Part shown: piece by piece, positions 1,956 to 46,835 of the stretch | How the letters are laid out: each line of letters opens with the position of its first letter | How positions within the stretch are numbered: the stretch's first letter is position 1 | Assembly: GCA_029781975.1 (NCBI GenBank) | Contig: JAKOVQ010000016.1 | Coordinates: 124,001-188,000 of the forward strand | Reading direction: 5' to 3' | Length of the DNA stretch: 64,000 nt | Source: Acidobacteriota bacterium | GTDB taxonomy: Bacteria; Acidobacteriota; Thermoanaerobaculia; UBA5066 | The notes under the pieces: generated by a model | Database searches by the model: none | What the model was told of the DNA's origin: nothing | The model's input: the letters and a program-made list of their open reading frames with translations, nothing else | Program-made: the position numbers and the translations under genes

Positions 1956-1975
1956 TCGCCCCGGCCGAGTCGCTC

Positions 1976-3768: not shown

Positions 3769-3826
3769 GCGGCGAGCGGCCGGGGTCCCCGGGCCGGCGC
3801 TCCCGCGGCGTCCGGCGGGCGAGCCG

Positions 3827-4963: not shown

Positions 4964-4982
4964 GCTTCGAGGCCCCTTCCTG

Positions 4983-6320: not shown

Positions 6321-6394
6321 CGACGCATTTTCCTGGAAACGGGCCGTTTAGGGTACCCGGTGCCGGTCCGGCGTGGGTTATCGTTCCGCGGCCG

Positions 6395-26387: not shown

Positions 26388-28028
26388 TCACTCCGTCGCC
26401 AGGACGACCTTGATGTCGGTCCGGCGGTTGAGCTGGCGGCCCGCCTCGGTCGCGTTGTCGGCGATCGGCTTGGCCGACCCGTGGCCGATCGTCTGGAAGC
26501 GGGAGGCCTCGATGTTCGGGAAGTTCTTCAGGATGTAGTTCTTCACCGCCAGGGCCCGCCGCTCGGAGAGCTGCATGTTCGCCTGGGCCTTGCCGGTGGC
26601 GTCGGTGTTCCCCTCGACCCGCAGGTAGGTGTTGCCGAACGAGGTCATCGTCTCGCCCAGGGCGTCGAGGACGAAGTACGAGCCCGACATGATCTCGTCG
26701 GAGTTCGGCGTGAAGTGGATCTGGATCTGCTTGTTGATGATCGCCCGGTCCGACGCCGACGGCGCCTTGGCGGCGACCTTCGGCTCCTCGACCTTCTGCG
26801 TCTGGTAGTGAGGGGCGAGGGCCGAGAGGAAACGGGTGTCGGCCCAGTCCTTCGCCTCGACCGGCCGGGTCACGAGCCCCTTCTTCCGCCAGATGACGAA
26901 CGCCGTGTCGAACAGGGTGTCGTAGTGCGCCTTCCCGCCGGACAGGCCGTAGAACTGGGCGTTGTCCGCGTACGGGGTGAGCTTGAGGCCCGAGAGCATC
27001 CCCGAGACCGTCTCGTCGTCCAGCTTGAGGGCCTTCGCGACGACGTTGTACGAGCCCGCGGGGTCCGCCTTGATCATGTCGATCCCGTCGAACCAGCCGT
27101 GGATGAAGTCGCGGACGGTGTCGGGGGCCTTGTCGATCAGGTCCTGCCGGGCGCAGAGGGTGTCGGCGATGATGTTGGTCGCCGCCGCCGTCGAGACGAG
27201 GACGTGCGCCTCGTCGCCGCGCGCGGTCACGGCGGCCGAGAGGTCCGGCTCCCACGTCACCGCGGCGTCCACCTGCTTCGCCTTGAACATCGCGGCGGCC
27301 GCGGGGGCGTCCTGCGTGAAGACGATGTTCTTCTCGACCGCCGCCCTGTCGTCGGGGGAGAGCCCCGACTGCGAGAGGAGGTAGAGGAGGAGGAAGTGCG
27401 AGGGGGTGAACTGGGTGCAGGAGATCTTCTTCCCCTTCAGGTCCTCGATCGACCTGATCGACGAGAGGGAGACGATCCCGTCGCCGCCGCGCGACCAGTC
27501 CTGGAGGATGACCGACTTGGCCTTCTGCCCCTGCTCGGCCAGGATCGACGCCTCGCGCGCCCAGTTGTCGACCGTGTTCCACATGACGTCGACGTCCCCC
27601 TTGCGGAAGGCGGCGAGCTTGGCCGCCGGGTCCTCGAGGAGGACGAACTTCACGTCGAGGCCGTACTTCTTCCGGTACCCCGACGCCGGCCCGGGGTCGA
27701 GCCCGCCGTTGAAGACGATCCCCGGGGCGTGGCCCGCCCAGGTGTTGATCGCCACGACGAGCGGGCGGCTCAGCTTGCCCGAGGTGGCGAGCGCCGCGGG
27801 CGCCACCCCCTCCGAGCCCTTGTCGCGCCCCGCGTCGGGCGGGGCGTTCCTCAGGGCGGCGAAGTCCGTCGCGTCGACGCCGGAGCCCTTCCCGGCGGCC
27901 GGCGCGCTCCCCTTCTCGGCGCCGGCCCAGGAGCGGATCTCGGCCCCCTTGTAGTGCCACACGGCGAACCCGAGGACCCCCGCGATGACGAGGGTGATGA
28001 AGATCTTCGCGAACGGGGTGAGCTTCAT
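26388..28028 (-). CDS. Membrane-anchored ABC substrate-binding protein fused to OmpA domain
   Basis: This 546-residue protein has a single N-terminal membrane anchor (about 7-25, no cleavage motif), a flexible region to about residue 85, an NMT1/SsuA-like periplasmic binding domain (about 88-410; VVAINTWAGHAPG, KGDVDVMWNTVDNW, VDAAVTWEPDLS) and a C-terminal OmpA peptidoglycan-binding domain (430-546; HFTPNSDEI, VEGNTDATGK, LSERRALAVKNYI, GHGSAKPIADN, GRQLNRRTDI). The last segment keeps the asparagine/arginine residues that contact diaminopimelate. The design tethers the binding protein to both the inner membrane and the cell wall. It lies between pspA and its permease. Annotation databases contain a similar binding-protein/OmpA type, so the fusion itself may not be unique. 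Confidence 0.88.
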   Translation of the reverse strand: MKLTPFAKIFITLVIAGVLGFAVWHYKGAEIRSWAGAEKGSAPAAGKGSGVDATDFAALRNAPPDAGRDKGSEGVAPAALATSGKLSRPLVVAINTWAGHAPGIVFNGGLDPGPASGYRKKYGLDVKFVLLEDPAAKLAAFRKGDVDVMWNTVDNWAREASILAEQGQKAKSVILQDWSRGGDGIVSLSSIRSIEDLKGKKISCTQFTPSHFLLLYLLSQSGLSPDDRAAVEKNIVFTQDAPAAAAMFKAKQVDAAVTWEPDLSAAVTARGDEAHVLVSTAAATNIIADTLCARQDLIDKAPDTVRDFIHGWFDGIDMIKADPAGSYNVVAKALKLDDETVSGMLSGLKLTPYADNAQFYGLSGGKAHYDTLFDTAFVIWRKKGLVTRPVEAKDWADTRFLSALAPHYQTQKVEEPKVAAKAPSASDRAIINKQIQIHFTPNSDEIMSGSYFVLDALGETMTSFGNTYLRVEGNTDATGKAQANMQLSERRALAVKNYILKNFPNIEASRFQTIGHGSAKPIADNATEAGRQLNRRTDIKVVLATE

Positions 28029-28122: not shown

Positions 28123-28836
28123 TCACATCGTCTTCTGACCTTGCGCGGCCTGCTGGGCCGCGCGCTTGGCCTTGAGCTCCGCGAGCTGCTGCTTGGCCTG
28201 GACGTCGCCCGCCTGGGTCTTGAGCGCCGCCAGCCGCGAGTCGAGCGACGACTCCTGCAGCTCCTTGCCGAGGTTCGCGGCGGCGACCGTGGTCTTGATG
28301 TGCTCGCGGACGTTGTCGAGGGCCTTCACCTCGGCGTCGACCGAGAGGCCGTCGAGCTGCTCCTGGATCTTCAGACGCGCCTGCGCGGAGTGCATCCGGG
28401 CGAGCTGGACGTCGCGCTCGGCCTTCAGCTTCTTGATCTCGCTCTGCACCTGCAGGAGAGAGCTCTTCGCCGCCTCGGCGTCCTTCGAGGCGGTCTCCAT
28501 GTCGGCCTTCAGGTCGTTGGCCTCCGCCTCGAGCTGGTTCTTCTTCTGGATGACGATGACGGCCAGGTCGTCCTGGTTGGTCTCGACCGCCGCGTTCAGC
28601 TCGGCCTCGGTCTGCGCGAGCTCGCGCGTCGCCTTCTTGAGCCGCTCGTCGATGTCCTCGCGCCGCTTGATGATCGCGGCGGTCGCCATCTTCAGCTTGT
28701 TGTACTTCTCCACCATCGAGTTGATCGCGTTCTCGTAGGCGATCTCGGGGTGCTCCTTCTCGATGTCGGAGATCCAGAGGGAGAGGAACCCCTTCCAGAG
28801 GTTCCTCAGGCGGCTGAAGAGACCCACGTCGGCCAT
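28123..28836 (-). CDS. pspA: PspA/IM30 family membrane-stress protein
   Basis: This 237-residue protein is of the PspA/Vipp1 type, which belongs to the ESCRT-III superfamily and assembles on damaged inner membrane. The N-terminal amphipathic helix [18 protein letters not shown] is followed by the long coiled-coil hairpin (about residues 45-150; [21 protein letters not shown] is at its heart) and the helical C-terminal domain to residue 237, ending in an alanine/lysine-rich tail. The N-terminal helix is more hydrophobic than in E. coli PspA. It starts 4 bp after the preceding coiled-coil gene. No pspF or sigma-54 promoter is seen. Confidence 0.92.
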
Positions 28837-29548: not shown

Positions 29549-30892
29549 TCAAGCGGGCCCGCCCCCGCGCCCCGCGTCGGCGAGGAGCGCGTCGGCGGCC
29601 TGCCGCCCGAGGCGCACGGCGTAGTTCTGCCCCCGGTCCTCCGGGTAGATCTGGGCCATGCAGGCGGTATAGAGGCCGGGCACCTCCGTCCGGAGCCCCG
29701 GGAGGAGCTCGGAGTAGCGCGCCCCGACCACCGGCTGGGCGTACTCGCCCCGGAAGATCCGCCGGGCGAGGACCCAGCTCTCGTCGAAGCCGGGCCGGAC
29801 CCGCGCGAGCGCCGGGAGGTAGAGGCGCCAGAGCTCCTCGTCGCGCATCCGCCAGCGGGGGTCGTCGGGGAGGACGTAGTTCGAGAGGTAGACGACGTGG
29901 CGGCCGCCGTACCAGTCCGGCGGGAGCAGGTTCGTCTGCTCGATGACGCCGCCGAAGGGGAGCGAGGCGTCGCCGACGTTGAGCCAGTAGTACGGGGTCA
30001 GGCGCCTGTCGAGCTCGAGGAGCGGGCAGAGGGCGTGGGCGTACGCGACCCGGGCCCAGCGCCCGCGCAGCTCCTCCGGGAGGCCCGGGGCGATCCGGAG
30101 GAGCTCGGGGAGGGCGACCGTCGAGAGGACCTTCTCGAACGCCTCCGCCCCGCCGGCCGTCTCGACCCGGAGCCCCCCGCCCTCCCGGGCGACGAGCCGG
30201 ACGGGACGCGCCGTCCGGACGTCGCCCCCTCGGGAGCGGACCCTCGCCAGGAGGGCCGCGATCCCCCGGCCGAACGAGCCACGCATGTAGCCGAGCCGCT
30301 CGCCGAGCCCCGACGCGGAGCGGGACCGGGAGCGGAGCGCGATCTTCCCCCAGAGCCAGACGAGGCCGATCTCCTCCGCGCGGGCACCGTACTTCTGGGC
30401 GAGGAGCGGTCCCCAGACGGTCTCGTACGCCTTCCCGAAGCCGTTCCGGCGCATCCACCCAGCGGCCGTCTCCCCCTCGAGCCGCCGCCAGTCCCGCTCG
30501 CCGCGGAGCCGGAGCGTCGAGAGGACGAACTGGAGGCGCCCGGCGACCCCGAGCGGCGCGAACCTCAGGAGGGAGGCGGGGGTGCCGAAGTCCCAGAGGC
30601 GGCCCGCGGTGAAGAAACCCATCCGCGAGGAGAGCCAGAGGATCTCGCCGTCGAGGCCGAGGTCCCGGGCGAGGTCGACGTAGTCGACGTCGGAGGTGAA
30701 GAGGTGGTGGTAGAAGCGCTCGAGCGGAGCCCCCCCCACCTCGCAGACGCCGACGAGACCCCCGGCCTCGGGGTACTTCTCGAAGACCGTCACCGGGAGG
30801 CCCGCCGCGAGGAGCCGGTCGGCTGCGACGAGCCCGGTCAGCCCGCCGCCGATGACCGCCACGCGCGGCGTGCCGACGCCCTCGCCCGCCAC
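29549..30892 (-). CDS. FAD-dependent amine-oxidase/protoporphyrinogen-oxidase-like oxidoreductase
   Basis: This 447-residue flavoprotein has the N-terminal dinucleotide fold VAVIGGGLTGLVAADRLLAAG followed by the acidic end of strand 2 (VFEKYPEAGGL), as in amine oxidases, phytoene desaturases and UDP-galactopyranose mutases. The C-terminal FAD segment is PGLYTACMAQIYPEDRGQ with NYAVRLGRQAADALL. Such proteins often sit in polysaccharide or glycolipid loci. GTG start, 6 bp from the divergent DUF2298 gene. Its substrate is unknown; a sugar-nucleotide or polyprenol-linked step is plausible given the glycosyltransferases next door. Confidence 0.83.
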   Translation of the reverse strand: MAGEGVGTPRVAVIGGGLTGLVAADRLLAAGLPVTVFEKYPEAGGLVGVCEVGGAPLERFYHHLFTSDVDYVDLARDLGLDGEILWLSSRMGFFTAGRLWDFGTPASLLRFAPLGVAGRLQFVLSTLRLRGERDWRRLEGETAAGWMRRNGFGKAYETVWGPLLAQKYGARAEEIGLVWLWGKIALRSRSRSASGLGERLGYMRGSFGRGIAALLARVRSRGGDVRTARPVRLVAREGGGLRVETAGGAEAFEKVLSTVALPELLRIAPGLPEELRGRWARVAYAHALCPLLELDRRLTPYYWLNVGDASLPFGGVIEQTNLLPPDWYGGRHVVYLSNYVLPDDPRWRMRDEELWRLYLPALARVRPGFDESWVLARRIFRGEYAQPVVGARYSELLPGLRTEVPGLYTACMAQIYPEDRGQNYAVRLGRQAADALLADAGRGGGPA

Positions 30893-30898
30893 GGCGCC

Positions 30899-32956
30899 AT
30901 GCTACCGTGCGCCGCGCCCGTGTCCGCAGGCGCCCTCCTGACCTTCGCCGTCTTCCTCGCGCTCGCCACGCTCGCCGGGGCGGCCGCCCTCGTCCGCGTC
31001 CTGCCCCGGGACGAGGACGCCGACGCGGCCGTGGCGCTCGGGCCGTCGGCCGGCCTTCTCCTGGCGGCGCTCCCCGGGTGGCTCCTCTCGGCGGCGGTGC
31101 GGGTCCCGGCCGGGCTCGTCCTGGCCCTCGGTGCCGCCGCCTGGGCGGCGGCGCTCGGACTCGGCGCCCGCCCGCTCCTCCGCCTCCTCGCGCGTCCCCG
31201 CCGCCTGCTCGTCCCGCTGGCGGTGCCGCTCGCGGCCACGCTCCTCTTCCTCTGGCTCCGCTGGCCGGCCGGCGCGATCCGCGACACGGAGAAGCCGATG
31301 GACTTCGCCGTCCTCTCGGCGGCGATGACGACCCCGTCCCTGCCGCTCGGGGACCCGTGGCTCTCCGGGGAGCGCTTCTCCTACTACCACCTCGGGACCC
31401 TCGCCCTCGCCCTCCCCGCCCGGGCGGCTGGGCTCCCGTCGGAGGACGCCTACAACCTCCTGGCCGCGCTCCTCGCCGGCCTCGCGGCGTCCGCGGCGTT
31501 CGCCGCCGGCCGCCTCCGCGGCGGCGGCCGGCGGCTCGCCCTCGCGGCGTCCGCCGCGCTCGTCCTCGCCGGGACGTTCGACGGCGCCCGGCAGCTCCTC
31601 GCCGGGACCCCGGTCGGGGGGATCGACCTCTGGGCGTCGTCGCGGCGGGTCGCGCACGCGATCACCGAGTGGCCCCTCTTCACACTCCGCCTCGGCGACC
31701 TCCACCCGCACGCCGTCGCCCTCCCCCTCCTCGTGGCCTGGGCCGGCGCCGCCGGCCGGCTCCGCGGGGCCTCGGGGGTGGCGGCGCAGGGGCTCCTCCT
31801 CGGCTCCCTCCTCGCCACCAACCCGTGGGACGCGCCCGCGGCCCTCCTCGTCCTGGCGGCCGGGACGCTGGCGCGCGACGAGCTCCTCCCCGCCGTGAAG
31901 GAGTCCGCTGCGACGCTCCTCGCCGCCGTCCCGGTCCTCCTCCCGTTCCTCCTCGGCCCCCGCCCGCCGTTCCTCGGCCTCTCCCTCTCGCCGGCGGCGA
32001 CCACGAGCCCCGAGGCCTTCCTCCACCTCGGCCCGTTCGTCGCCGTCCCGGCCCTCGCCCTCGGCGTCGCCCTCGTGAGGTCGCAGGACCGTCCCGACCG
32101 GCAGCTCCTCTTCGCCGTCCTCCCGCCGACGATCGGCGTCGCCCTCTCGATCGTCTCCCAGCGGCCGGTCCTCGGCCTGGCGCTCGGCTTCGCCTCCGGG
32201 GTCGCGCTCGTCTGGGGGCGGCTCGCCGGGACGCTCCGGAGCGCGTTCCTCCTCGCCTCCGCCGGCGCCCTCCTCGCCTCGGTCCCGGAGGTGATCGTCG
32301 TCCTCGACCCCTACGGCGACGACTACCGGCGGATGAACACCCTCTTCAAGACGTGGGCCGGGGCGGTGCCCCTCCTCGTCGTCGCCTCGGCCCTCCTCCT
32401 CCCGCTCGCCCTCGCGGCGCGGCGCGGCCGGCGGACGATCCGGGCCCTCCTCCTCGCGACGCTGGCGGGCGCGCTGGTCCACCCGGCGGCGGCCGTCGCG
32501 ACCCGGCTGGCCGCGACCGGCGGAGGGCTCGACGGGCTCTCGGCCCTCGCCGCCGAGGCCCCCGGGGACGTCGCGGCGATCCGCTGGCTCCGCGAGCACG
32601 CCCCGGCCGACGCCGTCGTGGCGGAGGCGCCGGGCGAGGCCTACTCGCTCCACGGGCGGATCTCCTCCGCCACCGGCCGGCCGACCGTCCTCGGGTGGGC
32701 GTCACACGAGGGGATCTGGCGCGGCAGCGCCGCGCGAGAGGAGATCGAGGCGAGGAAGGCGGCCCTGAAGACGCTCTACACCTCGGCCGACGCGGCGGCC
32801 GTCGGCCAGGCCGTCCGGACGTACGGCATCCGGTACGTCGTCGTCGGCCCGCTCGAGCGGAAGGACTTCGGGCCCGGGGCCCTCCGGGCGCGCGCGCTCT
32901 TCACGAGGGTCCTCGACGCCGACGGGACGGAGCTCTTCGAGGTCCGCGCCCCGTGA
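30899..32956 (+). CDS. DUF2298 (Chlor_Arch_YYY) multispanning membrane protein
   Basis: This 685-residue inner-membrane protein has about twelve to fourteen helices. DUF2298 hallmarks are clear: KPMDFAVLSA, GERFSYYHLGTL, AITEWPLFTLRLGDLHPHA, LATNPWDAPAA and YRRMNTLFKTW. The family is thought to be GT-C-like glycosyltransferases using lipid-linked donors, but no member's reaction is established to my knowledge. A soluble C-terminal domain begins near residue 550 (IRWLREHAPADAVVAEAPGE), similar to that of oligosaccharyltransferase-like proteins. ATG 30899 is given; GTG 30920 is also possible. The stop overlaps the next gene (GTGA). Confidence 0.85.
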   Translation: MLPCAAPVSAGALLTFAVFLALATLAGAAALVRVLPRDEDADAAVALGPSAGLLLAALPGWLLSAAVRVPAGLVLALGAAAWAAALGLGARPLLRLLARPRRLLVPLAVPLAATLLFLWLRWPAGAIRDTEKPMDFAVLSAAMTTPSLPLGDPWLSGERFSYYHLGTLALALPARAAGLPSEDAYNLLAALLAGLAASAAFAAGRLRGGGRRLALAASAALVLAGTFDGARQLLAGTPVGGIDLWASSRRVAHAITEWPLFTLRLGDLHPHAVALPLLVAWAGAAGRLRGASGVAAQGLLLGSLLATNPWDAPAALLVLAAGTLARDELLPAVKESAATLLAAVPVLLPFLLGPRPPFLGLSLSPAATTSPEAFLHLGPFVAVPALALGVALVRSQDRPDRQLLFAVLPPTIGVALSIVSQRPVLGLALGFASGVALVWGRLAGTLRSAFLLASAGALLASVPEVIVVLDPYGDDYRRMNTLFKTWAGAVPLLVVASALLLPLALAARRGRRTIRALLLATLAGALVHPAAAVATRLAATGGGLDGLSALAAEAPGDVAAIRWLREHAPADAVVAEAPGEAYSLHGRISSATGRPTVLGWASHEGIWRGSAAREEIEARKAALKTLYTSADAAAVGQAVRTYGIRYVVVGPLERKDFGPGALRARALFTRVLDADGTELFEVRAP

Positions 32957-35900
32957 GCGGGCCGGGGCGCTTCCGGACCGGCCTCGCCCTCGTCGCGCTG
33001 CTCGGCCTCGCGGCCCGGCTCCACGGGATCGGGTGGGACGGGTGGCAGCACCTCCACCCGGACGAGCGCTTCCTGACGATCGTCTCCGACGCGATCCGCC
33101 TTCCGCCCCCCTCCCTCTGGTTCGACACGGCCCGCTCTCCCGCGAACCCGCACAACGCCGGGCAGAGCTTCTACGTCTACGGGACGCTCCCGCTCTTCCT
33201 CTTCCGCGGGATCGCCGCAGCGCTCGGGAAGGCCGACTACGACGGTCTCCTCCGCGTCCAGCGCGGGGTCGCCACCCTGGCGGACTTCGCGACGATCCTC
33301 CTCCTCGGCCTCCTCGCGCGCCGCCTGGCGCCGCCGGGCGCACGAGAGAAGGCGGGTCTCCTCGCGGCGGCGCTCTGGGCGGCCGTCCCCTTCGCGATCC
33401 AGCAGGCCCGCTTCGGGACCGTCGACACGCTCGGGACGGCGTTCGTCGTCGCGGCGCTCCTCGTCTCGGTGACGCGGCGGACGCCGGGCGGAGCGCTCCT
33501 CGCCGGCCTCCTCCTGGGGGCCGCGGGCGCCTGCAAGGTGAACCTCCTCGTCTTCGGCGCCAGCCTCGGCCTGGCGTTCCTCCTCGGGGCGGAGGTCCGA
33601 CGGTCGCCGGCCCGCCTCGCGGCGTGCGGGGCGCTCGGGATTCTCGGGGCGCTCGTCGCGTTCCGCGTCCTCGACCCGTACGCCTTTCGCGGGCCGGGGC
33701 TCCTCGGCGTCGCCCCGAATCCGGCCTGGCTGGCGAACCTCGCCGAGCTCCGCGGGCTCCTGAAGGTGACGTCGTGGTACCCGCCGGGGGTCCAGTGGGT
33801 GGACCGACCCCCGATCGATTTCGCGTCGAGCCTCCTCCTCTGGGCGACCGGCCCGCTCCTCGGTCTCTGGCTCGCGGGGGCCTCCGTCGCCCTCCTCCAC
33901 CGGGCCCTCCTCGGCCGGCGCGAGGTGGCCGTCCGCCTCCTCCCGGTCGTCGCCGTGGCGGTCCCGCTCCTCGTCTGGCAGTCGCTCCAGCCCGTCGCCT
34001 CGGTCCGCCATGCCCACACGGCGCTGGCGCTCCTGGTCGCGGCGGGGGCGGCGGCCTTCCCGCTCCTCCTCGGGCGCCTCGCGCGGCCGGCCGCTCTCGC
34101 CGTCCTCGCGGGCACCGCCCTCGCCGGCGCCGCCTTCCTCGGGATCGCCTCGCGCGAGCACACCCGGCTCGCCGCGTCCCGGTGGCTCGGGACCGCCTTC
34201 CCGAACGGCGCGCGCGTCGCCTTCGAGTACTGGGACGACGCCCTCCCGCTCCCCCTTCCCGACGTCCCGTGGGAGGGGTTCACGGGCGAGGCGCTCCCGG
34301 TCTTCGAGCCCGACTCCCCGCGGAAGGCGGGGCAAGTGCTCACCGCCCTGGCACGATCGGAGGTCTACGTCCTCTCGTCCCGCCGCGCCTTCGCGCCGCT
34401 TTCGCGGCTCCCGGACGCCTACCCGTGGACGTCGGAGCTCTACCGGCTCCTCGACAGCGGGGCCCTCGGGTTCGAGAAGGCCGCCGTCTTCGAGAGCCCT
34501 CCCGGGATCGGGCCCCTGCGCTTCGACGACCGGACGGCCGAGGAGGCGCTCTCCGTCTACGACCATCCCGTCGTCACGATCTACCGGCGAACGTCCCGCT
34601 TCTCGCTCCCGCTCGCCGAGCGGCTCCTCGCGCGCGTGGGCGAGCTCCCGCCCGAGCCTCCCGACCCCGCGACGGTCGAGGCGCGCGGCGTCCCGCCGGA
34701 CGAGTCCCCTCGGGCGCGGGCCCGGGGCTGGCCGGCGCCCCCGCCGCCCCGGCCGAAGGGGCTCGTCGGAGGCGCGGTCGCGGTCGCCGGCTGGCTCCTC
34801 TTCGTCGAGGTCGCGGGCGCGCTGGCGGCCGGGTTGCTCCTGGCGACCGGCTCCCGTCCCTCTCTCGCCTCCGGCCTCGGGCGGCCCGCGGGCTTCGCGC
34901 TGGCCGGGCTCCTCTGGCTCTGGCTCGGCTCCACCGTCCCCGGGTACCCGTTCCTCGCCCTGCCGCTCGTCGTCGCCGCCGCGGCCGCGGCGTGGTTCAC
35001 CCCGGCGGGGCGGCGGGGGATGCGTCTCCTCGGACGGTCGCGGCTCCTCTTCCTCGCCCTCTTCGGCGGGTTCCTCCTCGTCCGCGCCTTCAACCCGGAG
35101 ATCTTCTGGGGCGAGAAGCCGATGGACGGGGCGCTCCTCGGCGCGGCGCTCCGCTCCCCGCGGCTTCCGCTGTACGAGCCGTGGTTCGACGGGGCGCCGC
35201 TCGACTACTACGCGCAGGGCTTCCTCCCGGTCGCGTTCGCGGCCCGCGCCTCCGGGGCCTGGGCGGGGCTCGCGTACAACCTCGCCTGCGCCACCCTTCC
35301 GGCCTTCCTCGGAGGCGCGCTGTTCGCGATCGGGCGCCTCCTCTCGGGACGGCGGCTCGGCGGGTTCCTCGCGCTCCTCCTCGGCCTCCTCTCGGGGACC
35401 CTGGCGCCGCTCCTGAACGCGGGGTGGCGGACCGCCCCGTTCGGGTTCGACGGCTTCTGGGCCGCCTCGCGCGTCGTCCCGCCGGTCGGGATCGACGAGT
35501 TCCCGCTCTTCACCGCCCTCTTCGCGGACCTCCACGCCCACTTCCTTTCGTGGGCGCCCTTCGCCGCGCTCCTCGGCCTCGCCCTCGGGCGGACGCTCCG
35601 GCGACCTCGGGCCGGGAGCCGGGCCGACCGGGGCGGGGCCCTCCTCCTCGGCGCGCTCGCCGGCGCGGTCCACCTGACGAACCCGTGGGAGACGCCGCTC
35701 GCGGCTCTGCTCCTCCTCGCGGCGCTCCCTCCCCGCCGGCCGAAGGGCGAGCCGCTCCGGGCCGCGGCCGCGACGGCGCCGTTCCTCCTCGCCGGAGGGG
35801 CGGCCCTCCTCGCCGCCCTCCCTTCGCTCCTCGCCGTGAGGACGAGCCCCGTCGGGGTGGAGCTCGACGCGCCCCATCCGGGGGTCCTCCTTCCCTACGT

Positions 35901-36624
35901 CGAGCTCTACGGCCTCCCCGTCGCGCTCCTCCTCCTCGCCTGGGTCGTCCGGGGGACGGGCGAGACGCGGCGCGAGCGGGTCGCGCTGGCGGTCGGCCTC
36001 GCGGGCCTCCTCCTCGTCGCCGGCGCCGAGGTCGTCGTCGTCTCCGACCGGATGAACACCCTCTTCAAGTTCGGGCTCCAGGCGCGGCTCCTCCTTTCGG
36101 TCGGCGCCGCGGCCGCCGTCCCCCCGCTCCTCTCCGAGGCCCGGAGCCGGCGCCTCGCCGTGGGGATCCCGCTCGCCCTGGCCGCCCTCCTCGGGGCGGT
36201 GACGCTCGTCGCGGGCGCTTCCCACGTCGTCGCGGTGGTGAGGACCCGCCGGGTCCCCGGTCCGCGCCCGGCGCTCGACGGGTACGCGTACGTCGCGTCG
36301 TGGGACCCGGCGCTCGACGCCCGGGGGCTCTCGCTCGGGCGCCGCGCGGGCTTCCCCGCGATCCTCGATCCGCCGGGCGAGCCCTACTCGCCCTCCCTTC
36401 AGGTGACGATGCGGACCGGATGCCCGACACTGGTCGGGTGGCCCTGGCACCTCGTCCAGCGGCGCCGCTCGCCGGCCCAGATCGCCCTGAGGGAGGGGGA
36501 CGTGAGCCGGCTCCTCTCGGGGCCGAGGGACGAGCTCTGGGCGCGGCTGAGGGAGAGCTACGGCCTGAGCGCGGGGGACGTCGACGCGGCGATCGCGGCG
36601 ACGGCGGGGAGCCGGAGGTGGTGA
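32953..36624 (+). CDS. PMT/ArnT-like glycosyltransferase fused to DUF2298 domain
   Basis: This 1223-residue membrane protein is a fusion. Residues 1 to about 560 form a GT39/PMT-like unit (first loop HLHPDERFLTIVSDAI with paired acidic residue, later ARFGTVDTLGTAFVV, VASVRHAHTALAL) with its own soluble region (about 395-590). Residues about 600-1223 form a DUF2298 unit (GEKPMDGALLGAAL, PLDYYAQGFLPVAF, IDEFPLFTALFADLHAHF, HLTNPWETPLAA, SDRMNTLFKFGLQ). GTG start overlaps the previous stop. In total more than twenty helices. It sits next to a separate DUF2298 protein, so the two DUF2298 units may act in sequence or as a pair. Function: transfer of sugars from polyprenyl-phosphate donors, inferred. 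Confidence 0.85.
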   Translation: MSGPGRFRTGLALVALLGLAARLHGIGWDGWQHLHPDERFLTIVSDAIRLPPPSLWFDTARSPANPHNAGQSFYVYGTLPLFLFRGIAAALGKADYDGLLRVQRGVATLADFATILLLGLLARRLAPPGAREKAGLLAAALWAAVPFAIQQARFGTVDTLGTAFVVAALLVSVTRRTPGGALLAGLLLGAAGACKVNLLVFGASLGLAFLLGAEVRRSPARLAACGALGILGALVAFRVLDPYAFRGPGLLGVAPNPAWLANLAELRGLLKVTSWYPPGVQWVDRPPIDFASSLLLWATGPLLGLWLAGASVALLHRALLGRREVAVRLLPVVAVAVPLLVWQSLQPVASVRHAHTALALLVAAGAAAFPLLLGRLARPAALAVLAGTALAGAAFLGIASREHTRLAASRWLGTAFPNGARVAFEYWDDALPLPLPDVPWEGFTGEALPVFEPDSPRKAGQVLTALARSEVYVLSSRRAFAPLSRLPDAYPWTSELYRLLDSGALGFEKAAVFESPPGIGPLRFDDRTAEEALSVYDHPVVTIYRRTSRFSLPLAERLLARVGELPPEPPDPATVEARGVPPDESPRARARGWPAPPPPRPKGLVGGAVAVAGWLLFVEVAGALAAGLLLATGSRPSLASGLGRPAGFALAGLLWLWLGSTVPGYPFLALPLVVAAAAAAWFTPAGRRGMRLLGRSRLLFLALFGGFLLVRAFNPEIFWGEKPMDGALLGAALRSPRLPLYEPWFDGAPLDYYAQGFLPVAFAARASGAWAGLAYNLACATLPAFLGGALFAIGRLLSGRRLGGFLALLLGLLSGTLAPLLNAGWRTAPFGFDGFWAASRVVPPVGIDEFPLFTALFADLHAHFLSWAPFAALLGLALGRTLRRPRAGSRADRGGALLLGALAGAVHLTNPWETPLAALLLLAALPPRRPKGEPLRAAAATAPFLLAGGAALLAALPSLLAVRTSPVGVELDAPHPGVLLPYVELYGLPVALLLLAWVVRGTGETRRERVALAVGLAGLLLVAGAEVVVVSDRMNTLFKFGLQARLLLSVGAAAAVPPLLSEARSRRLAVGIPLALAALLGAVTLVAGASHVVAVVRTRRVPGPRPALDGYAYVASWDPALDARGLSLGRRAGFPAILDPPGEPYSPSLQVTMRTGCPTLVGWPWHLVQRRRSPAQIALREGDVSRLLSGPRDELWARLRESYGLSAGDVDAAIAATAGSRRW

Positions 36625-38165
36625 GCCGGCGCGAGAAGGCCGCCTGGGCCGCCCTTCTCCTCCTCGCCCTCGGGCTGAGGCTGTGGGGGCTCGCCGACCG
36701 CCCGTTCCACCATGACGAGTCGGTCCACGGCTGGTTCACGCACCAGCTGGTCCATTCCGGCGAGTACGTCTACGACCCCGTCTACCACGGGCCGGTCCAG
36801 TACTACGCGGTGGCCGTCTCGTTCCTCCTCCTCGGCGAGTCCGACTTCACCGCCCGCCTCCCGGCGGCCCTCGGCGGGACGGCGCTCGTGGCGCTCGCGC
36901 TCCTCCTCCGGCCCCGCTTCGGCCGGCGGGCGGCGTTCGCGTCGGGCGCGCTCCTCGCCCTCTCCCCGAGCCTCCTCTACTACACCCGGTTCTGCCGCGA
37001 GGACGTCTGGAGCCTCCTCGGGACGGCGGGCGCGCTCCTCTTCCTCGACGTCTGGGTGCGGCGCGAGCGGCTCGGAGACCTCGTCGTCGCCACCCTCTTC
37101 GCAGCCTGCGCCTTCGGCGCCAAGGAGAACTTCTACGTCCTCCTCGCCCTGATGGTCCCCTCCGTCGCCGCCGTCACGCTGGAGCCGGGGCGCGGGCTCG
37201 ACCTGCGGCGCCGGGCGGACGAGCTCCTCGCCTTCCTCTCGCGCCACGCCGTCGCCCTCGCGGGGGCCTTCCTCCTCTTCTTCGTCGTCTCCGAGCTCCT
37301 CTACACCTTCTTCCTCGTCCACCCCGCCTCGGGGAACCCCGCCTGGACGGCGATCTCCTACTGGTGGGGCCAGCACAAGGTCGAGCGGATCGGCGGGCCG
37401 AAATGGTTCCACCTGCCGCGCCTCCTCCAGTACGAGTTCGCCATCCTCCTCCCGGCCTTCGCGGTGATCGCCCGCTGGCGTCGCCTCTCGGCCGTGGAGC
37501 GGTTCCTGGCGGGCTGGGGCCTCTCGTCGATCGCGATGTACGCCTGGCTCGGCGAGAAGACGCCGTGGCTGATCGTCCACCAGATCCTGCCGTTCGTCCC
37601 GCTGGCGGGGCGGGGCTGGGCGGGCGTCTCGCGGCGGAGGTGGGCGTGGCCGCCCGGCCTCGCGGCCGCCGCCGCCTCCGTCGTCACGGCGCTCTCCCTC
37701 TCGTTCTGGCACCCGGTCCTCACCCCCGCCGACCCGCGCGCAGAGTCCCTGGTCTACGTCCAGACGGCGCCCGAGCTCCTGGCGGTCGAGCGGGAGATCG
37801 AGTCGGTCGCGCGCGCCGGCGTCAGCCCCGCCGCCGCGGTCGACGGGGAGGCCGCCTGGCCGCTGAGCTGGTACCTCCGGGACGTCCCCGTGAGGTGGGG
37901 GAAGCCGACGGCGACGGAGAAGCCCCCGATCGTGATCGTCGACCCCGCCTCGGCCGACGAGGTGGCGGCCGTCCTCGGGCCCGCCTACACGCGCGCGGAG
38001 GTCCCGCTGAGGGTCTGGTGGCTTCCCGAGGTCTCGGCGGACCCGCTCCACCCGACGCCGCGCGAGCTCCTCCGGTACCTCCTCACCCGGGTCCCGTGGT
38101 CGCCGATCGGGTGGCAGCCGGTGACGGTCTTCCGGGAGACGGGCGAGAATCGCGGGACGCCGTGA
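36621..38165 (+). CDS. Agl23-like (TIGR03663) GT39-type membrane protein
   Basis: This 514-residue membrane protein matches the group named for archaeal Agl23 (TIGR03663), a GT39-like protein linked to glycan export or transfer. Key features: first periplasmic loop RPFHHDESVHGWFTHQL, YHGPVQYYAVAVSF, LYYTRFCREDVWSLL and AFGAKENFYVLL, then WWGQHKVERIGGPKWFH. About ten helices precede a soluble tail from residue 375. The GTG start overlaps the previous stop (GTGA) and GGAGG lies just upstream. It is part of the coupled four-gene operon with DUF2298 proteins and the GT2 gene. Confidence 0.83.
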   Translation: MSRREKAAWAALLLLALGLRLWGLADRPFHHDESVHGWFTHQLVHSGEYVYDPVYHGPVQYYAVAVSFLLLGESDFTARLPAALGGTALVALALLLRPRFGRRAAFASGALLALSPSLLYYTRFCREDVWSLLGTAGALLFLDVWVRRERLGDLVVATLFAACAFGAKENFYVLLALMVPSVAAVTLEPGRGLDLRRRADELLAFLSRHAVALAGAFLLFFVVSELLYTFFLVHPASGNPAWTAISYWWGQHKVERIGGPKWFHLPRLLQYEFAILLPAFAVIARWRRLSAVERFLAGWGLSSIAMYAWLGEKTPWLIVHQILPFVPLAGRGWAGVSRRRWAWPPGLAAAAASVVTALSLSFWHPVLTPADPRAESLVYVQTAPELLAVEREIESVARAGVSPAAAVDGEAAWPLSWYLRDVPVRWGKPTATEKPPIVIVDPASADEVAAVLGPAYTRAEVPLRVWWLPEVSADPLHPTPRELLRYLLTRVPWSPIGWQPVTVFRETGENRGTP

Positions 38166-39142
38166 ACGCCCCAGACCTCTCCGTCGTCCTCCCCGTCTTC
38201 AACGAGGCCCCGGGGCTCGGGGAGCTGAGGGAGCGCCTCGAGCGGACGCTCGCCGGCACGGGCCGGAGCTGGGAGGTCGTCTTCGTCGACGACGGGAGCC
38301 GGGACGGCTCGTTCGAGGCGATGACCGCCTTCGCCCGCGACGACCGCCGGTTCCGAGCCCTCCGCCTCTCGCGCAACTTCGGCCACCAGATGGCGCTGAC
38401 GGCCGGGGTCGACGCGGCCCGCGGCCGGTGCGTCGCCGTGATGGACGCCGACCTGCAGGACCCGCCCGAGCTCCTCCCGGCGCTCCTCGCGAAGCTCGAC
38501 GAGGGGTACGAGGTCGTCTACGCGCAGCGGGAGCGGAGGGACGGCGAGGGCGCGTTCAAGCGGGCGACCGCCCACGTCTTCTACCGCCTCCTCAGGCGCC
38601 TGACCTCGGTCGACATCCCGGTCGACACGGGCGACTTCCGGGTCATGGGGCCGCGCGCGACGGCGGCGTTCCGGCGCCTCCGGGAGCGGCACCGGTTCAT
38701 CCGCGGCCTCTCGGCGTGGGTCGGGTTCCGCCAGACGGGGGTGCCGTACGCGCGGCCGCCCCGCCGCTCCGGCGAGACGAAGTTCCCGTTCCGGCGCATG
38801 GCCACCTTCGCCCTCGACGCCATCACGTCGTTCAGCCACGTCCCCCTCCAGCTCGGGACGTGGCTCGGGTTCGGCGTCTCCCTCTTCGCCTTCCTCTACA
38901 TCCTCGTCGTGGTCGCCCTGAAGGTGCTCGGGATCAACGAACGGGGCTGGACCACCCTCATGGGGTGGATGCTCCTCCTCGGCGGCGTCCAGCTGATGCT
39001 GATCGGCGTCCTCGGCGAGTACCTGGGGCGGATCTACGACGAGGTGAAGGGGCGCCCCCTCTACCTCGTCGCGGACGAGGTCGGGGGGGAGCCGGAGGAG
39101 ACCGCGCCCGCCGCCGAACCGTCCCCGGGGCCGCTGTCGTAG
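38162..39142 (+). CDS. Glycosyltransferase family 2, dolichol-phosphate-mannose-synthase/ArnC-like
   Basis: This 326-residue protein transfers a sugar from a nucleotide donor to polyprenyl phosphate. GT2 motifs: LSVVLPVFNEAPGL, VVFVDDGSRDGSFE, metal-binding VMDADLQDPPELL and the acceptor region TGDFRVMG. Two C-terminal helices (about 228-252 and 268-290) anchor it, ending in EYLGRIYDEVKGRPLY, typical of GtrB/ArnC-type enzymes. The GTG start overlaps the upstream stop. It would supply lipid-linked sugar for the three GT-C proteins encoded before it. Confidence 0.92.
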   Translation: MNAPDLSVVLPVFNEAPGLGELRERLERTLAGTGRSWEVVFVDDGSRDGSFEAMTAFARDDRRFRALRLSRNFGHQMALTAGVDAARGRCVAVMDADLQDPPELLPALLAKLDEGYEVVYAQRERRDGEGAFKRATAHVFYRLLRRLTSVDIPVDTGDFRVMGPRATAAFRRLRERHRFIRGLSAWVGFRQTGVPYARPPRRSGETKFPFRRMATFALDAITSFSHVPLQLGTWLGFGVSLFAFLYILVVVALKVLGINERGWTTLMGWMLLLGGVQLMLIGVLGEYLGRIYDEVKGRPLYLVADEVGGEPEETAPAAEPSPGPLS

Positions 39143-39154
39143 AGTCGGGCGGGG

Positions 39155-40186
39155 ATGAAGAGCGGCCACTGGAACCGGTCCCAGGGGGACCTGAAGAGGC
39201 GCCTCGCAGCCGCCGTCGGGCACGACCTCCTCAGGGAGCTCCACCGGAAGGTGCCCGCACGGCACTTCGCGGTCGCCGTGCGGCAGGCGCTCCTCTTCGC
39301 GGCGGCCTTCTGCGCCGGGTGGCTCGTCGACGACCCCTGGGTCCGGGTCCCGGCCGCCCTGGTCCTGGGCGTCGTCGTCTTCGACGGAACGATCCTCCTC
39401 CACGAGGTCGTCCACCGGGCGGTCTTCCGGGACGACAGGCCCCGCGCCTACCGCCTCCTCGGGCTCCTCTACGCCCTCCCGTCCGGCATCTCGCCGACCC
39501 AGTTCACCCGCTGGCACCTCGACCACCACGCCGAGCTCGGCTCGAGCGTCGACGACCCGAAGCGGGCGCACCTGTCGCCGAAGCGGAACGCGCGCTGGCT
39601 GAAGCTCCTCTACGCCACCCCGGCGCTCTTCCCCATCTACTTCCGGGCGGCGCGGCGCGAGACGGCGACCTACCCCGAGCCGCTCCGGCGGACGATCGCC
39701 CTCGAGAGGCTCGCGGCGACCGCGCTCCACGTCGGGGTCGCCTCGGCCATCGGCCTCCTGGGAGGCGTCGACCGCCTCGTCTGGCTCTACCTCGTCCCGG
39801 TCTTCGTCGTCTTCCCGCCCGCCTTCACCCTCAACCGGCTCGGCCAGCACTACGACGTCGTCCCGTCGGAGCCCGCCCGCTGGGGGACCCGGATGGCCCG
39901 CTCGCGGCTCTGGGAGACGGTCTACCTCTGGTCGAACTACCACCTCGAGCACCACTACTACCCTGCCGTCCCGTTCTACCGCCTCCCGGCCCTGGTCCGT
40001 GCCCTCGAGCCGTTCTTCGAGCGGGAAGGGATCCCGGCGCGGACCTACCGCGGGCTCGTCCTCGACTGGATCGTGAGGAACCGGGCCCCGCACACGGACT
40101 GGCGCGGGGCCGGGACCCATCCGGGACTCTGCTACTCTCGCCCGAAGGCGGGCGCGGCGGCCCCCGAAGTGCACGACGGAGACTGA
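39155..40186 (+). CDS. Membrane fatty acid desaturase
   Basis: This 343-residue membrane di-iron enzyme has the three histidine boxes: H83/H87 (HEVVH), H121/H124/H125 (HLDHH) and H263/H266/H267 (HLEHH), plus H232 before the last box. Four hydrophobic segments surround them. It introduces double bonds, or in sister families hydroxyl or ketone groups, into acyl chains or carotenoids. ATG start with GGGCGGGG upstream and a TAGAGT hexamer 15 bp before the start. It follows the GT2 gene by 12 bp and may belong to the same transcript. Confidence 0.88.
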
Positions 40187-43296: not shown

Positions 43297-45165
43297 TCAG
43301 GGGGCGGGCAGCGGGACGAGGAAACCGTCCGGTCCACGGACCTCGACCCGGTCCGCCCCGGCGCCGGCCCGGAAGAGGCGGTGCGCCCCCGCGGCCAGGT
43401 GGATCGTGACCGACCGCGCCGAGCGCGATCCGCCGAGGAGGGGAAGCCCGTCGACGGAGATCTCGGCGCCCGGCGGCGCCGAGAGGGTGTAGAGGCCGTC
43501 CTCGCGCGCCACGAGCTCCCGGTCCCCGGTCGGGACCGCCGCGGCCCCGGGAGGCGCGGCCCCGAGCGCCGGCACCGCCGCGAGCCGCTCCCGCGCGGCC
43601 CGAATCGCGGTCGCCGCCGGGACGCGGATCAGCGCCCAGCCGCTCCACGCCCCGAGCGGCTCACCCCGCGCGACGACGGTTCCACCCAGGGCGAGGGCGT
43701 CCGACCCCGCCTGGTCGTCGCCGCAGGCGTCGAGGACGTCCCCCTCCGGCTGGAATCGGTATCCCTCGCGGGCGAGGTCGCCGAGCCGGACCACGGGCCG
43801 TCCCCCGCCCGACGGAGAGCCGAGGAGGACGTCCACGACGTACGGGTTCCGAGCCGCGCGCGGCCCGAGGACGACCGTCGCCGGACCGTTCGCGGCGAGC
43901 TCGGCGCGGACCGCGTCGGCCAGCTCCCGCTCGGGCCCCCCGAACGCTCCGCGGAGCCTCTCCGACGAGGCCCACGAGACGAACGTCGCCACCTCGCCCG
44001 CGGCGACGGCGGCCGCGGCGGCGCCGAGGAGGATCGCGGCGGCGCCGCGCCGCGCGGGAGGGACCCGGTCGAGGAGGAGGAGCGCCCCCGCTGCCGCCAG
44101 GACGACGAGGAAAGGCGCGACCGGCGAGATCCGGTAGGCGTTCCCCCCTTCGTCCGGCGCGGAGAGGAGGCCGCCGAGGAGGAAGGCTCCCGCCGCGAGG
44201 GCGACGAGTCGGCCCCGCCCTCCGCGGAGCGCCCCGGCGGCTCCGATCGCCGCGAGGCCGGTCAGGAGCGGCGGGAAGACGGGGCGGCCGGGGTCCCCGT
44301 GCCGCTCGTTCCGGTCTCCCGAGACGAGGAAGAGGCGGCCGTAGGACGTGGCGTTCGCGACGACGTTCCGCAGGGTCCCTCCCGCGCCGCCCGAGACGAC
44401 CGAAACCTCACGCGCGCGCGCCAGGGCGCGGTCCGGGTGCCGGGCGAGGTGGACGCCGAGCGGCAGCGCGACGGCGATCGCCGCGGCGACGGCGAGGGCC
44501 GCGAGCCGGGCCTCGGCCCCCTTCCTCCGGGCGAGGGCCCAGCCGAGGACGACGAGCGGGAGCGGGAGGAGGAGCCGCGCCGCCACGTAGCCGTACTGCG
44601 CGAGGCCGACCAGGGCGCCCGACAGGAGCGCCGCACCGGACGAGCCGCGGCGTCCCGCCCGGAGAGCGCAGGCGACGGCGAGGACGGCGACGGCCGTCGT
44701 CGCCACGGCGTCCCACCCCCAGCGTCCGGTCGTCAGGAGCCAGGAGGACGTCGAGAGCCAGAGGAGCGCGAGGAGCGTTCCCCCCCGGTGCGGGCGGAGC
44801 GCCTCGAAGGCGAGGAGCGCCGCGGCGAGAAGGAGCGCGAGCGCTGGGCCGATCGAGAGGGCCCGGACCGAGGCGATCCCCCCGCCCGCCGTCCGGTCGA
44901 CCCATCCCGCGAAGGCGAGGTAGAGGTTCGAGGGCCAGGAGTTGACGAACCCGGCCTCGGGAGGGGTGAGCGGGGAGGTGGCGAGGAGCGACGCCGCGGG
45001 GTCCGCGGCGAGGAGGCGCGCGGCCCGCAGGGCGTAGGCCTCGTCGATCCACGGCCCCGGCGGCCACTCCGCCCACCTCATCAGACGGAGCCCCGCGCCG
45101 AGGCCGAGGATCAGGAGGACGGCCGCCCAGGTGGCCGCTCGGGATCGCCCGGCCGGCGTCGTCAC
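43297..45165 (-). CDS. GT39/ArnT-like membrane glycosyltransferase
   Basis: This 622-residue inner-membrane protein has about twelve helices. The first loop, WPPGPWIDEAYALRAARLL, carries the acidic residues used by GT-C enzymes for donor binding and catalysis, and the region SWPSNLYLAFAGW matches the PMT family. From about residue 430 a soluble periplasmic domain follows; its end (GAEISVDGLPLLGG) resembles a PEGA-like strand pair. The GTG start overlaps the phosphatase stop (GTGA). Its acceptor is unknown. Confidence 0.82.
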   Translation of the reverse strand: MTTPAGRSRAATWAAVLLILGLGAGLRLMRWAEWPPGPWIDEAYALRAARLLAADPAASLLATSPLTPPEAGFVNSWPSNLYLAFAGWVDRTAGGGIASVRALSIGPALALLLAAALLAFEALRPHRGGTLLALLWLSTSSWLLTTGRWGWDAVATTAVAVLAVACALRAGRRGSSGAALLSGALVGLAQYGYVAARLLLPLPLVVLGWALARRKGAEARLAALAVAAAIAVALPLGVHLARHPDRALARAREVSVVSGGAGGTLRNVVANATSYGRLFLVSGDRNERHGDPGRPVFPPLLTGLAAIGAAGALRGGRGRLVALAAGAFLLGGLLSAPDEGGNAYRISPVAPFLVVLAAAGALLLLDRVPPARRGAAAILLGAAAAAVAAGEVATFVSWASSERLRGAFGGPERELADAVRAELAANGPATVVLGPRAARNPYVVDVLLGSPSGGGRPVVRLGDLAREGYRFQPEGDVLDACGDDQAGSDALALGGTVVARGEPLGAWSGWALIRVPAATAIRAARERLAAVPALGAAPPGAAAVPTGDRELVAREDGLYTLSAPPGAEISVDGLPLLGGSRSARSVTIHLAAGAHRLFRAGAGADRVEVRGPDGFLVPLPAP

Positions 45166-46835
45166 TGGGGGCCGCCCGGCTCGAAGGTCACGATCACCGG
45201 GATGCTGGTCCTGAGGGAGAACCGCTCGTCGAAGACCTCCGCGAGGACGCGGCCGTCCATGTCGCGCGCCACGGGCTCGCCCGCCAGGACGAGGAGCGTC
45301 GGGGCGAGGTCGGCGACCGAGGCCGAGGTGAGGCGGACGCCGGCGCGGATCCCCGAGCCCCAGAGGACGACGAAGCCGTCCCGCCCCGCGTCGGGCGTCG
45401 CCGCGGGCTCGCGCCCCAGGAGGAAGCGGACGACCGAGCGGAAGAGGGTGGGGGGGCCGTAGCCGACCGGCGAGAAAACGCAGACGGTCCGGTCCCTTCC
45501 GCCCCGCTCGAGGAGGTCCCCGAGCGTCTCGTCGAGGAGCCGGTAGTACGCGAGGAGGGCCTTCTCGCGCGCGTCGGCCTCCGGCGCGGGGCTCCCCCAG
45601 TACCGGCCCGGCTCCGCCGCCGGCCCGTAGCGCCGGGCCACCGAGGCCAGGCCGGAGAGACACAGGGCGGAGACGTTGCCGGGCCCCGACGGGACGAACG
45701 CCAGCGTCGCGGCCGCGACCGTCAGGTCGCGCGCCGCCCCGGTCACGGCGCCGACCGCCTTCCGGTCGGCGCTGGCGAGCGCCTCGGGCTCGAGGGCGCG
45801 GGCGAGCGGACGGTCGAGGTTCGCCGGCGGGACGGCGAGGAGGCGGACGCGCGACGCCGCCTCCGGCGGGAGGCCGGCCTCGATCCCGGGATCGTTCCCG
45901 AAGAGCCGCTCGGTGGCCCAGACGACCTGCCCGGGCCGCGGCGGGTCGGCCGCCGGCCAGCCGAGGACGGCCGCCTGGTGCCCGCGCGCGGCGAGGATCT
46001 CCCAGAACGCGAGGCTCCGGCGGTGGGAGAGGTCGGCCGGCCGCCGCCGCGACAGCGGGAGGGAGTCCGGCGGCGGGAAGTCGAGGAGGCGCGGGAGGAG
46101 GCGGAGGTCCCCGAGCGGCGTCTCGAACAGGGTGCCCGAGACGACGCCGTGCTTCGACGGCCGCTTCCCGGTCGCGGCCGTCGTCCAGAGCGCGGCTCGG
46201 TCGTAGGGGGCGAGCGAGGCGAGGGGGCCTCCCGCCCCTTCCTTCAGGAGGCGCCCCAGGACCGGAAGACGCCCCTCGGACGCGAGGCGCGAGACCAGCT
46301 CCCACGACGCTCCGTCGATCCCGACGACGAGGACGTTCCGGGTCGCCGTGCCGGGGACCGCCTCGGGCGCGGCGAGGGGCGAGGGGCGAGGGCGGCGCTG
46401 GCCGTAGAGGGGGATCGCCGCCAGCGCGACGAGGAGCGGGACGAGGAGCCGCCGGGGCGGCTTCGGGGTCGCGCGGACGGCGCGGACGAGGGCGAGGAGG
46501 GCGAAGACCCCGGAGACGAGGGTCGTCGCGACGAGGAGCCGCCGCGCGCCGTGATGGAGGAAGAAGTAGTAGAGCGTCCGCTCGTGCTCGGCGAAGAGCG
46601 CCAGCGCCGCGAGCGCGGCCGCGAGGCACGCCCAGAAGCCCCGGCCCGGGCCGCCGCGCAGGAGGAGCGACGGCGCCGCGGCGACGGCTCCGACCAGCGC
46701 GGCTCCGCCCAGGGCCCGGACGACGCCGGCGACGGAGAGGAGGTCCGGGTTCAGCGCGAGGAGGACGTTCCCCGCTCCGAGGCCGAGCGCCGCCCCGAAG
46801 ACGATGAGGTGGAAGGCGCGCCGCGCGTCGCTCAT
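45162..46835 (-). CDS. Membrane-anchored alkaline-phosphatase-superfamily phosphodiesterase
   Basis: This 557-residue protein has an N-terminal membrane domain of about five helices (to residue 165) and a C-terminal type I phosphodiesterase/nucleotide-pyrophosphatase domain starting at VLVVGIDGASWELVSRLA. The metal-binding aspartate in GIDG and the nucleophile region YDRAALWTTAATGKRPSKHG are visible, though the later metal ligands are less clear: SPVGYGPP stands where a histidine is usual, so activity could be lost or altered. I use ATG 46835; the frame extends further upstream but would overlap the divergent pyrK gene. Paired with a GT-C gene. Confidence 0.75.
   Translation of the reverse strand: MSDARRAFHLIVFGAALGLGAGNVLLALNPDLLSVAGVVRALGGAALVGAVAAAPSLLLRGGPGRGFWACLAAALAALALFAEHERTLYYFFLHHGARRLLVATTLVSGVFALLALVRAVRATPKPPRRLLVPLLVALAAIPLYGQRRPRPSPLAAPEAVPGTATRNVLVVGIDGASWELVSRLASEGRLPVLGRLLKEGAGGPLASLAPYDRAALWTTAATGKRPSKHGVVSGTLFETPLGDLRLLPRLLDFPPPDSLPLSRRRPADLSHRRSLAFWEILAARGHQAAVLGWPAADPPRPGQVVWATERLFGNDPGIEAGLPPEAASRVRLLAVPPANLDRPLARALEPEALASADRKAVGAVTGAARDLTVAAATLAFVPSGPGNVSALCLSGLASVARRYGPAAEPGRYWGSPAPEADAREKALLAYYRLLDETLGDLLERGGRDRTVCVFSPVGYGPPTLFRSVVRFLLGREPAATPDAGRDGFVVLWGSGIRAGVRLTSASVADLAPTLLVLAGEPVARDMDGRVLAEVFDERFSLRTSIPVIVTFEPGGPQ

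Follow-up and report, generated by a model that had tools for sequence, protein, structure and literature searches.

GT-C glycosyltransferases carry an acidic motif right after their first transmembrane helix (TM1), and other residues are conserved in the external loops that come later. The second metal motif of AglB substitutes a His for its second Asp (D-x-H) (PMC6801728), and multi-component transmembrane glycosylation systems combine a GtrB/CsbB-type GT2 enzyme with a flippase and a GT-C protein (PMC8035078). Agl23 of Haloarcula hispanica (family TIGR03663) has been reported as a candidate hexose-P-dolichol flippase, which rescued yeast rft1-delta and translocated M5GN2-PP-Dol across liposomes in vitro (PMC11182771). 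Here, we describe a gene cluster that brings several such components together with two proteins of the DUF2298 family (PF10060; Chlor_Arch_YYY, TIGR03662). It lies in a 64,000-nucleotide stretch of DNA (the window; positions 124,001 to 188,000 of contig JAKOVQ010000016.1) from a 5.37 Mb genome whose relatives are Acidobacteriota of the Thermoanaerobaculia group, with a G+C content of about 70-78% in this stretch.

The core of the cluster is four overlapping genes on the + strand: A, a stand-alone DUF2298 gene (30899-32956); B, a fusion of a PMT-like and a DUF2298 module (32953-36624); C, an Agl23-like gene; and D, a GT2 gene. We think it probable that B is a tandem GT-C glycosyltransferase, whose two modules each have a predicted periplasmic active site, and that it takes part in extracytoplasmic glycan assembly with A, C and D. 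The likeness to the multi-component systems is known here from gene types, D being of the polyprenyl-P-sugar synthase type, C of the flippase-associated type, and A and B of the GT-C type. The cluster differs in having several GT-C modules per operon, two of them in one chain, and in an Agl23-like protein in place of a GtrA-type flippase.

Gene B is a single uninterrupted frame of 1223 residues starting at a GTG. Its first module (residues 1-562; 32953-34638) is PMT-like and ends in a C-terminal periplasmic dome (about residues 416-546); a Pro/Arg-rich linker of low confidence (residues 563-603; 34639-34761), with a predicted local distance difference test score (pLDDT) below 50 at residues 579-592, leads to the second module (residues 604-1223; 34762-36624), a DUF2298 GT-C unit with extra N-terminal transmembrane helices. 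PMT_2 (PF13231) matches B only marginally at residues 106-237 (27.6 bits, Pfam cut-off 26.1) and is stronger in its relatives, e.g. 54.4 bits in locus L066; DUF2298 is matched at residues 667-1008 with 195 bits, over the cut-off. Gene A, encoding 685 residues from an ATG start, passes the cut-offs of both PF10060 (207 bits) and TIGR03662 (330 bits, cut-off 300), whereas the B module stays under the latter (242 bits). The two DUF2298 units are clear homologues (profile match E 5e-132). A recent internal duplication within B was considered and rejected: the profile match between its PMT and DUF2298 halves is weak and local (58% probability over 70 columns), so the halves are distinct families with a common fold. 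Third-position G+C is 93-98% along all of B and 0.94 at residues 541-610, which include the linker. Both the fusion and the separate DUF2298 protein beside it, proposed in an original prediction made from the DNA letters, are real.

The same one-frame fusion is found in about 75 loci from at least seven phyla, and is genuine and old. Of 61 genomes searched, 31 had a DUF2298 match above the cut-off, with the PMT-DUF2298 fusion in all twenty loci examined, and a scan of named genomes recognised fusion-type frames in 77 of 80 loci, a set in which a few loci share one genome bin and some are repeats fetched under other numbers. The 77 comprise 33 from Chloroflexota, 25 from Acidobacteriota, seven from Myxococcota, two each from Binatota and CSSED10-310, one each from Pseudomonadota and Thermodesulfobacteriota, and six unassigned; none was found in plasmid records. 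In a quick-search tree of 111 DUF2298 domains (69 fused and 42 stand-alone), all the fused copies fall in one clade together with one stand-alone copy (Shimodaira-Hasegawa-like approximate likelihood ratio test, SH-aLRT, 97). That copy, from the Caldilineaceae locus L126, adjoins its own PMT gene (1654-4275 and 4279-6852 for the PMT-like and DUF2298 modules), and its position within the fused clade is most simply explained by a fusion that later came apart.

Predicted structures place both DUF2298 copies and the PMT half in the GT-C glycosyltransferase fold. The AlphaFold2 model of A has a pLDDT of 93.8 and a predicted template modelling (pTM) score of 0.94, and its significant Foldseek matches are to GT-C proteins only (E 8e-7 to 4e-4 for DPY19, STT3, AglB and AftD). 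VIA-align superposes it on STT3 (Z 17.0, 457 residues), AglB (16.5), ArnT (15.4), Pmt4 (14.5; root-mean-square deviation, rmsd, 4.5) and ALG12 (14.5), and its C-terminal domain on the globular domain of AglB (Z 10.5, rmsd 2.9 over 113 residues). AftA (GT85) aligns along nearly the whole chain (residues 32-684, 479 residues, Z 14.2, rmsd 4.8), including part of the extra N-terminal transmembrane region. The model of B, covering residues 1-1200 (pLDDT 87.9, pTM 0.85), forms two modules. In the first, residues 1-549 superpose on AglB with a Z of 29.3 and on Pmt4 with one of 28.8 (379 residues, rmsd 3.4); in the second, residues 634-1200 superpose on AftA (Z 13.8). The PMT half ends in its periplasmic dome and the DUF2298 module opens with extra transmembrane helices ahead of the GT-C core; since these helices follow the dome, both sites of B could face the periplasm. 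Triosephosphate isomerase, the best profile match to solved structures, was set aside as a chance resemblance over 30 residues. The description of TIGR03662 presumably covers a second class whose members have an additional N-terminal region, and DUF2298 may have been placed among the GT-C families in Pfam already; in that case our fold assignment confirms a known relationship and does not reveal a new one.

In detail the proteins depart from each of these known enzymes. AglB/STT3 (GT66) shares with them the fold, a C-terminal globular dome (Z 17-29) and a D-x-H-like second motif, but A and B lack the WWDYG motif and match neither the STT3 profile PF02516 nor the NCBIfam oligosaccharyltransferase (OST) models, and B is a PMT-DUF2298 tandem chain. 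Pmt4 (GT39) resembles the PMT half of B and likewise has a DE motif after TM1; B, however, has no match to the GT39 profile PF02366, and a second GT-C module follows. For AftA no sequence relation was found, and its priming of mycobacterial galactan has no counterpart shown here.

Conserved acidic and His residues stand at GT-C positions in both halves of B and in A, so that the search for GT-C catalytic aspartates in the DUF2298 units, suggested alongside the original prediction, came out positive. In the PMT half, the DE motif H35-P-D-E-R39 (33055-33069) lies directly after TM1, with D37-E38 present in all 66 sequences covering it, and D158 (33424-33426) occupies the second GT-C acidic position (D in 59 of 69, E in 10). 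In DUF2298, an acidic motif of the first external loop, E-K-x-M-[DE], stands at the start of the helix after TM1: its E is invariant and its fifth position D or E in all 111 sequences, a spacing (E-x3-[DE]) that differs from the usual GT-C DxD/DD. In A it reads E131-K-P-M-D135 (31289-31303; E131 42/42, D135 D/E 42/42) and in B E721-K-P-M-D725 (35113-35127; E721 69/69, D725 D in 46 and E in 23). A second-loop motif, D-L-H-x-H, sits before a later helix and has both His residues in 111/111; it is D267-L-H269-P-H271 in A (31697-31711; D267 38/42, H269 and H271 42/42) and D859-L-H861-A-H863 in B (35527-35541; each residue 69/69). Both DUF2298 copies also have a motif R-M-N-T-x-F-K.

The genomic partners point the same way. 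Gene C (36621-38165), a PMT_2-like protein with an HHDE motif, matches TIGR03663, 'flippase activity-associated protein Agl23', with 271.7 bits (cut-off 126.25). Gene D (38162-39142) encodes a GT2 enzyme (PF00535, 111 bits) of the polyprenyl-phosphate-sugar synthase type (PgfS/ArnC-like), which scores 251.7 bits against the PgfS model, under the equivalog cut-off of 500, and has hydrophobic C-terminal segments. A/B, B/C and C/D overlap by four bases each (GTGA), and therefore A-D look like one translationally coupled unit. A and B are the only two DUF2298 proteins of the genome, which has many PMT_2-type proteins; for a canonical OST there are only partial PF02516 matches, of at most about 37 bits, to long membrane proteins. 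TIGR03662 is strongly matched (best E below 1e-45) in 14 of 199 genomes from the phylum, and these 14 are all among the 39 that have TIGR03663 over the cut-off (hypergeometric p 1.4e-11, ignoring kinship). In each of the 14 an Agl23-like gene and the DUF2298 gene lie a short distance apart on one contig, with B standing between the two in the window, and so Agl23 consistently accompanies stand-alone DUF2298 in this phylum; the C proteins of many relatives differ from Haloarcula Agl23 in carrying an NHL propeller. Neighbours in other phyla include GT2 and GT4 genes, more PMT_2, flippase-like TIGR00374, methyltransferases and NHL proteins, and in a rumen Pseudobutyrivibrio a DUF2298 gene lies within a polysaccharide cluster (GT2, O-antigen ligase-type, sugar epimerase). 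As a separate observation, several genomes (G126, G084, G074, G145 and others) encode proteins of 600-850 residues that match only the C-terminal 70-190 positions of TIGR03662; they are apparently other GT-C-like proteins with a periplasmic dome in common.

We propose that D loads a sugar onto polyprenyl phosphate at the cytoplasmic face of the membrane and that this sugar lipid would reach the periplasmic face, possibly moved by C, given the flippase activity reported for the Agl23 family. The PMT-like and DUF2298 modules of B, together with A, would then transfer sugars in successive steps to an acceptor outside the cytoplasm, most probably a glycan that is lipid-linked or on the cell surface, and the A-D system would work much as the multi-component systems and the ALG and Aft enzymes do. 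For the DUF2298 modules we suggest E131/E721 of loop 1, together with D135/D725, as the catalytic acid/base; D-L-H-x-H may bind a metal or the phosphate of the donor in the manner of the AglB D-x-H, with R-M-N-T-x-F-K as a possible phosphate-binding motif. The multi-step lipid-linked sugar transfer of the original prediction fits the operon, with its GT2 donor synthase, Agl23-like protein and three or four GT-C modules; its reaction, donor and acceptor we infer. One lead on the donor comes from two relatives, where a UbiA gene resembling decaprenyl-phosphate phosphoribosyltransferase (cut-off 234 bits) lies directly after A-B-C (L059:15334-16182, 215 bits) or near A (L060:3203-4105, 210 bits), pointing to a possible pentose-lipid donor in those genomes; we keep this as a lead only because the window genome has just a weaker homologue (139 bits), about 13 kb before the window. 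More tentatively, as a possibility and not an expectation, DUF2298 could be a separate GT-C family with an AglB-like D-L-H-x-H metal site, hard-wired to a PMT-like GT-C across seven or more phyla, in many cases together with an NHL propeller, forming a processive two-site periplasmic assembler that passes a lipid-linked sugar chain between its sites.

Several points weigh against B as a tandem transferase. The literature searched held no functional papers on DUF2298 and no biochemistry of any DUF2298 protein, and no paper on a tandem GT-C fusion was recognised among the titles and abstracts searched. No sequence relative of DUF2298 with a solved structure was found by profile search, the two halves of B show only the weak, local profile similarity described above, and the proposed catalytic residues were placed via secondary structure and conservation, not superposition. 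D267 is replaced by Cys in four of the 42 stand-alone proteins. A common fold is no proof of activity: PIG-U has a GT-C fold and is not known to have transferase activity, and Agl23 is reported as a flippase.

The alternative that survives best, which we nevertheless consider unlikely, accepts B as a two-site GT-C enzyme and makes its acceptor a protein, in O- or N-glycosylation as by PMT or STT3/AglB. The best fold matches of both halves do include AglB/STT3 and Pmt4, and D-L-H resembles the D-x-H of AglB; such fold similarity to OSTs is, however, common to GT-Cs directed at lipids or polysaccharides (ArnT, AftA, ALG12), and the WWDYG motif and the PF02516, PF02366 and NCBIfam OST matches are missing.

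A little less plausible still is that sugar transfer is done only by the PMT-like half of B (and by C), with the DUF2298 modules as non-catalytic GT-C-fold partners that bind an acceptor or lipid carrier, like PIG-U in the glycosylphosphatidylinositol (GPI) transamidase. GT-C-fold accessory subunits exist, A also superposes on PIG-U (7wld_U, Z 9.8), and the Cys variants at D267 agree with such a role. But in a partner without catalytic function some of the motif residues should have been lost over several phyla, whereas E131/E721, H269/H861 and H271/H863 are kept throughout the 111 sequences and D859 throughout the fused ones; stand-alone DUF2298 is also encoded where no fusion gene adjoins it.

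It is improbable that A, B and C are mainly flippases (scramblases) of polyprenyl-linked sugars and not transferases. Such a role would agree with the membership of C in the Agl23 family, with the rft1-delta rescue and M5GN2-PP-Dol movement reported for Haloarcula Agl23 (PMC11182771) and with the tight linkage of A to C. The GT-C active-site motifs are, however, intact in B and C, and a transporter fold of the major facilitator superfamily (MFS) type was rejected for A, with a Foldseek probability of at most 0.15 against 1.0 for GT-C. Finally, the idea that two genes were joined by a sequencing or frame error, for which the adjacent modules of L126 might speak, can be dismissed given the constant codon-position G+C through the linker, the independent assembly of about 75 one-frame loci, and the single clade of fused domains from which only the L126 copy has separated again.

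The gene order A-B-C(-D) of the window recurs in L044, L046/L054 and L057, and among the 32 loci with at least 5 kb on both sides a stand-alone DUF2298 gene is present in 20 and an Agl23-like gene in 17. In L066 (9641-14761), L072, L082, L101, L064 and others the fusion has an NHL beta-propeller as its third domain, at the C-terminus (PF01436, 117 bits in L066); this propeller is predicted to be periplasmic and is also present on many Agl23-like partners. The fusions of the window, L044, L045, L046/L054 and L057 are without it. In locus L097 (9647-15985) a single frame encodes two DUF2298 units along with a PMT-like module (DUF2298 score 600 bits), and L129 (2-6145) is similar but begins inside the PMT part. 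In L035, L039 and L040, from the family of the window, the order is X, A, C, D, E, so that C comes straight after A, and a longer B that includes an NHL propeller lies a few kb upstream; since, moreover, bin R1_Bin_272 has both a short and a long form (L054, L085), the two may replace one another. Window A is nearest to L113/L066/L072/L094 (52% identity) and window B to the Thermoanaerobaculum-type short fusions (L054/L055/L057), and this difference in closest kin suggests replacement or exchange of B.

The cluster is flanked by a divergent gene X (29549-30892, - strand), encoding an FAD-dependent amine-oxidase-like oxidoreductase (PRK07233; NCBIfam 444.7 bits, cut-off 252), and it ends with gene E (39155-40186, + strand), fatty-acid-desaturase-like (PF00487, 110 bits), conserved as the last gene within the same family and 75-77% identical in L035, L039 and L040. 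Genes of the X type also adjoin the stand-alone DUF2298 gene in L035, L037, L039, L040, L090 and L124, and an FAD amine-oxidase-like gene lies beside or near it in several phyla (L090:4293-5627; L124:1220-2557; L059:5825-7144). Elsewhere in the window, a gene on the - strand (26388-28028) joins a periplasmic NMT1/THI5-like binding domain to an OmpA domain and adjoins a PspA/IM30 gene (28123-28836), and the gene for a 622-residue protein without a Pfam match (43297-45165, - strand) shares 4 bp with one of the type I phosphodiesterase family (45162-46835).

Archaea and several bacterial phyla have DUF2298 proteins, and once these are read as GT-C enzymes, with named catalytic residues, a constant partner in Agl23 and a second transferase fused to them, their function can be put directly to the test. 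The same reading suggests that Acidobacteriota, Chloroflexota, Myxococcota and others have an uncharacterised pathway for extracytoplasmic glycans, and a natural GT-C chain with two active sites would be useful for studying the stepwise building of lipid-linked glycans outside the membrane.

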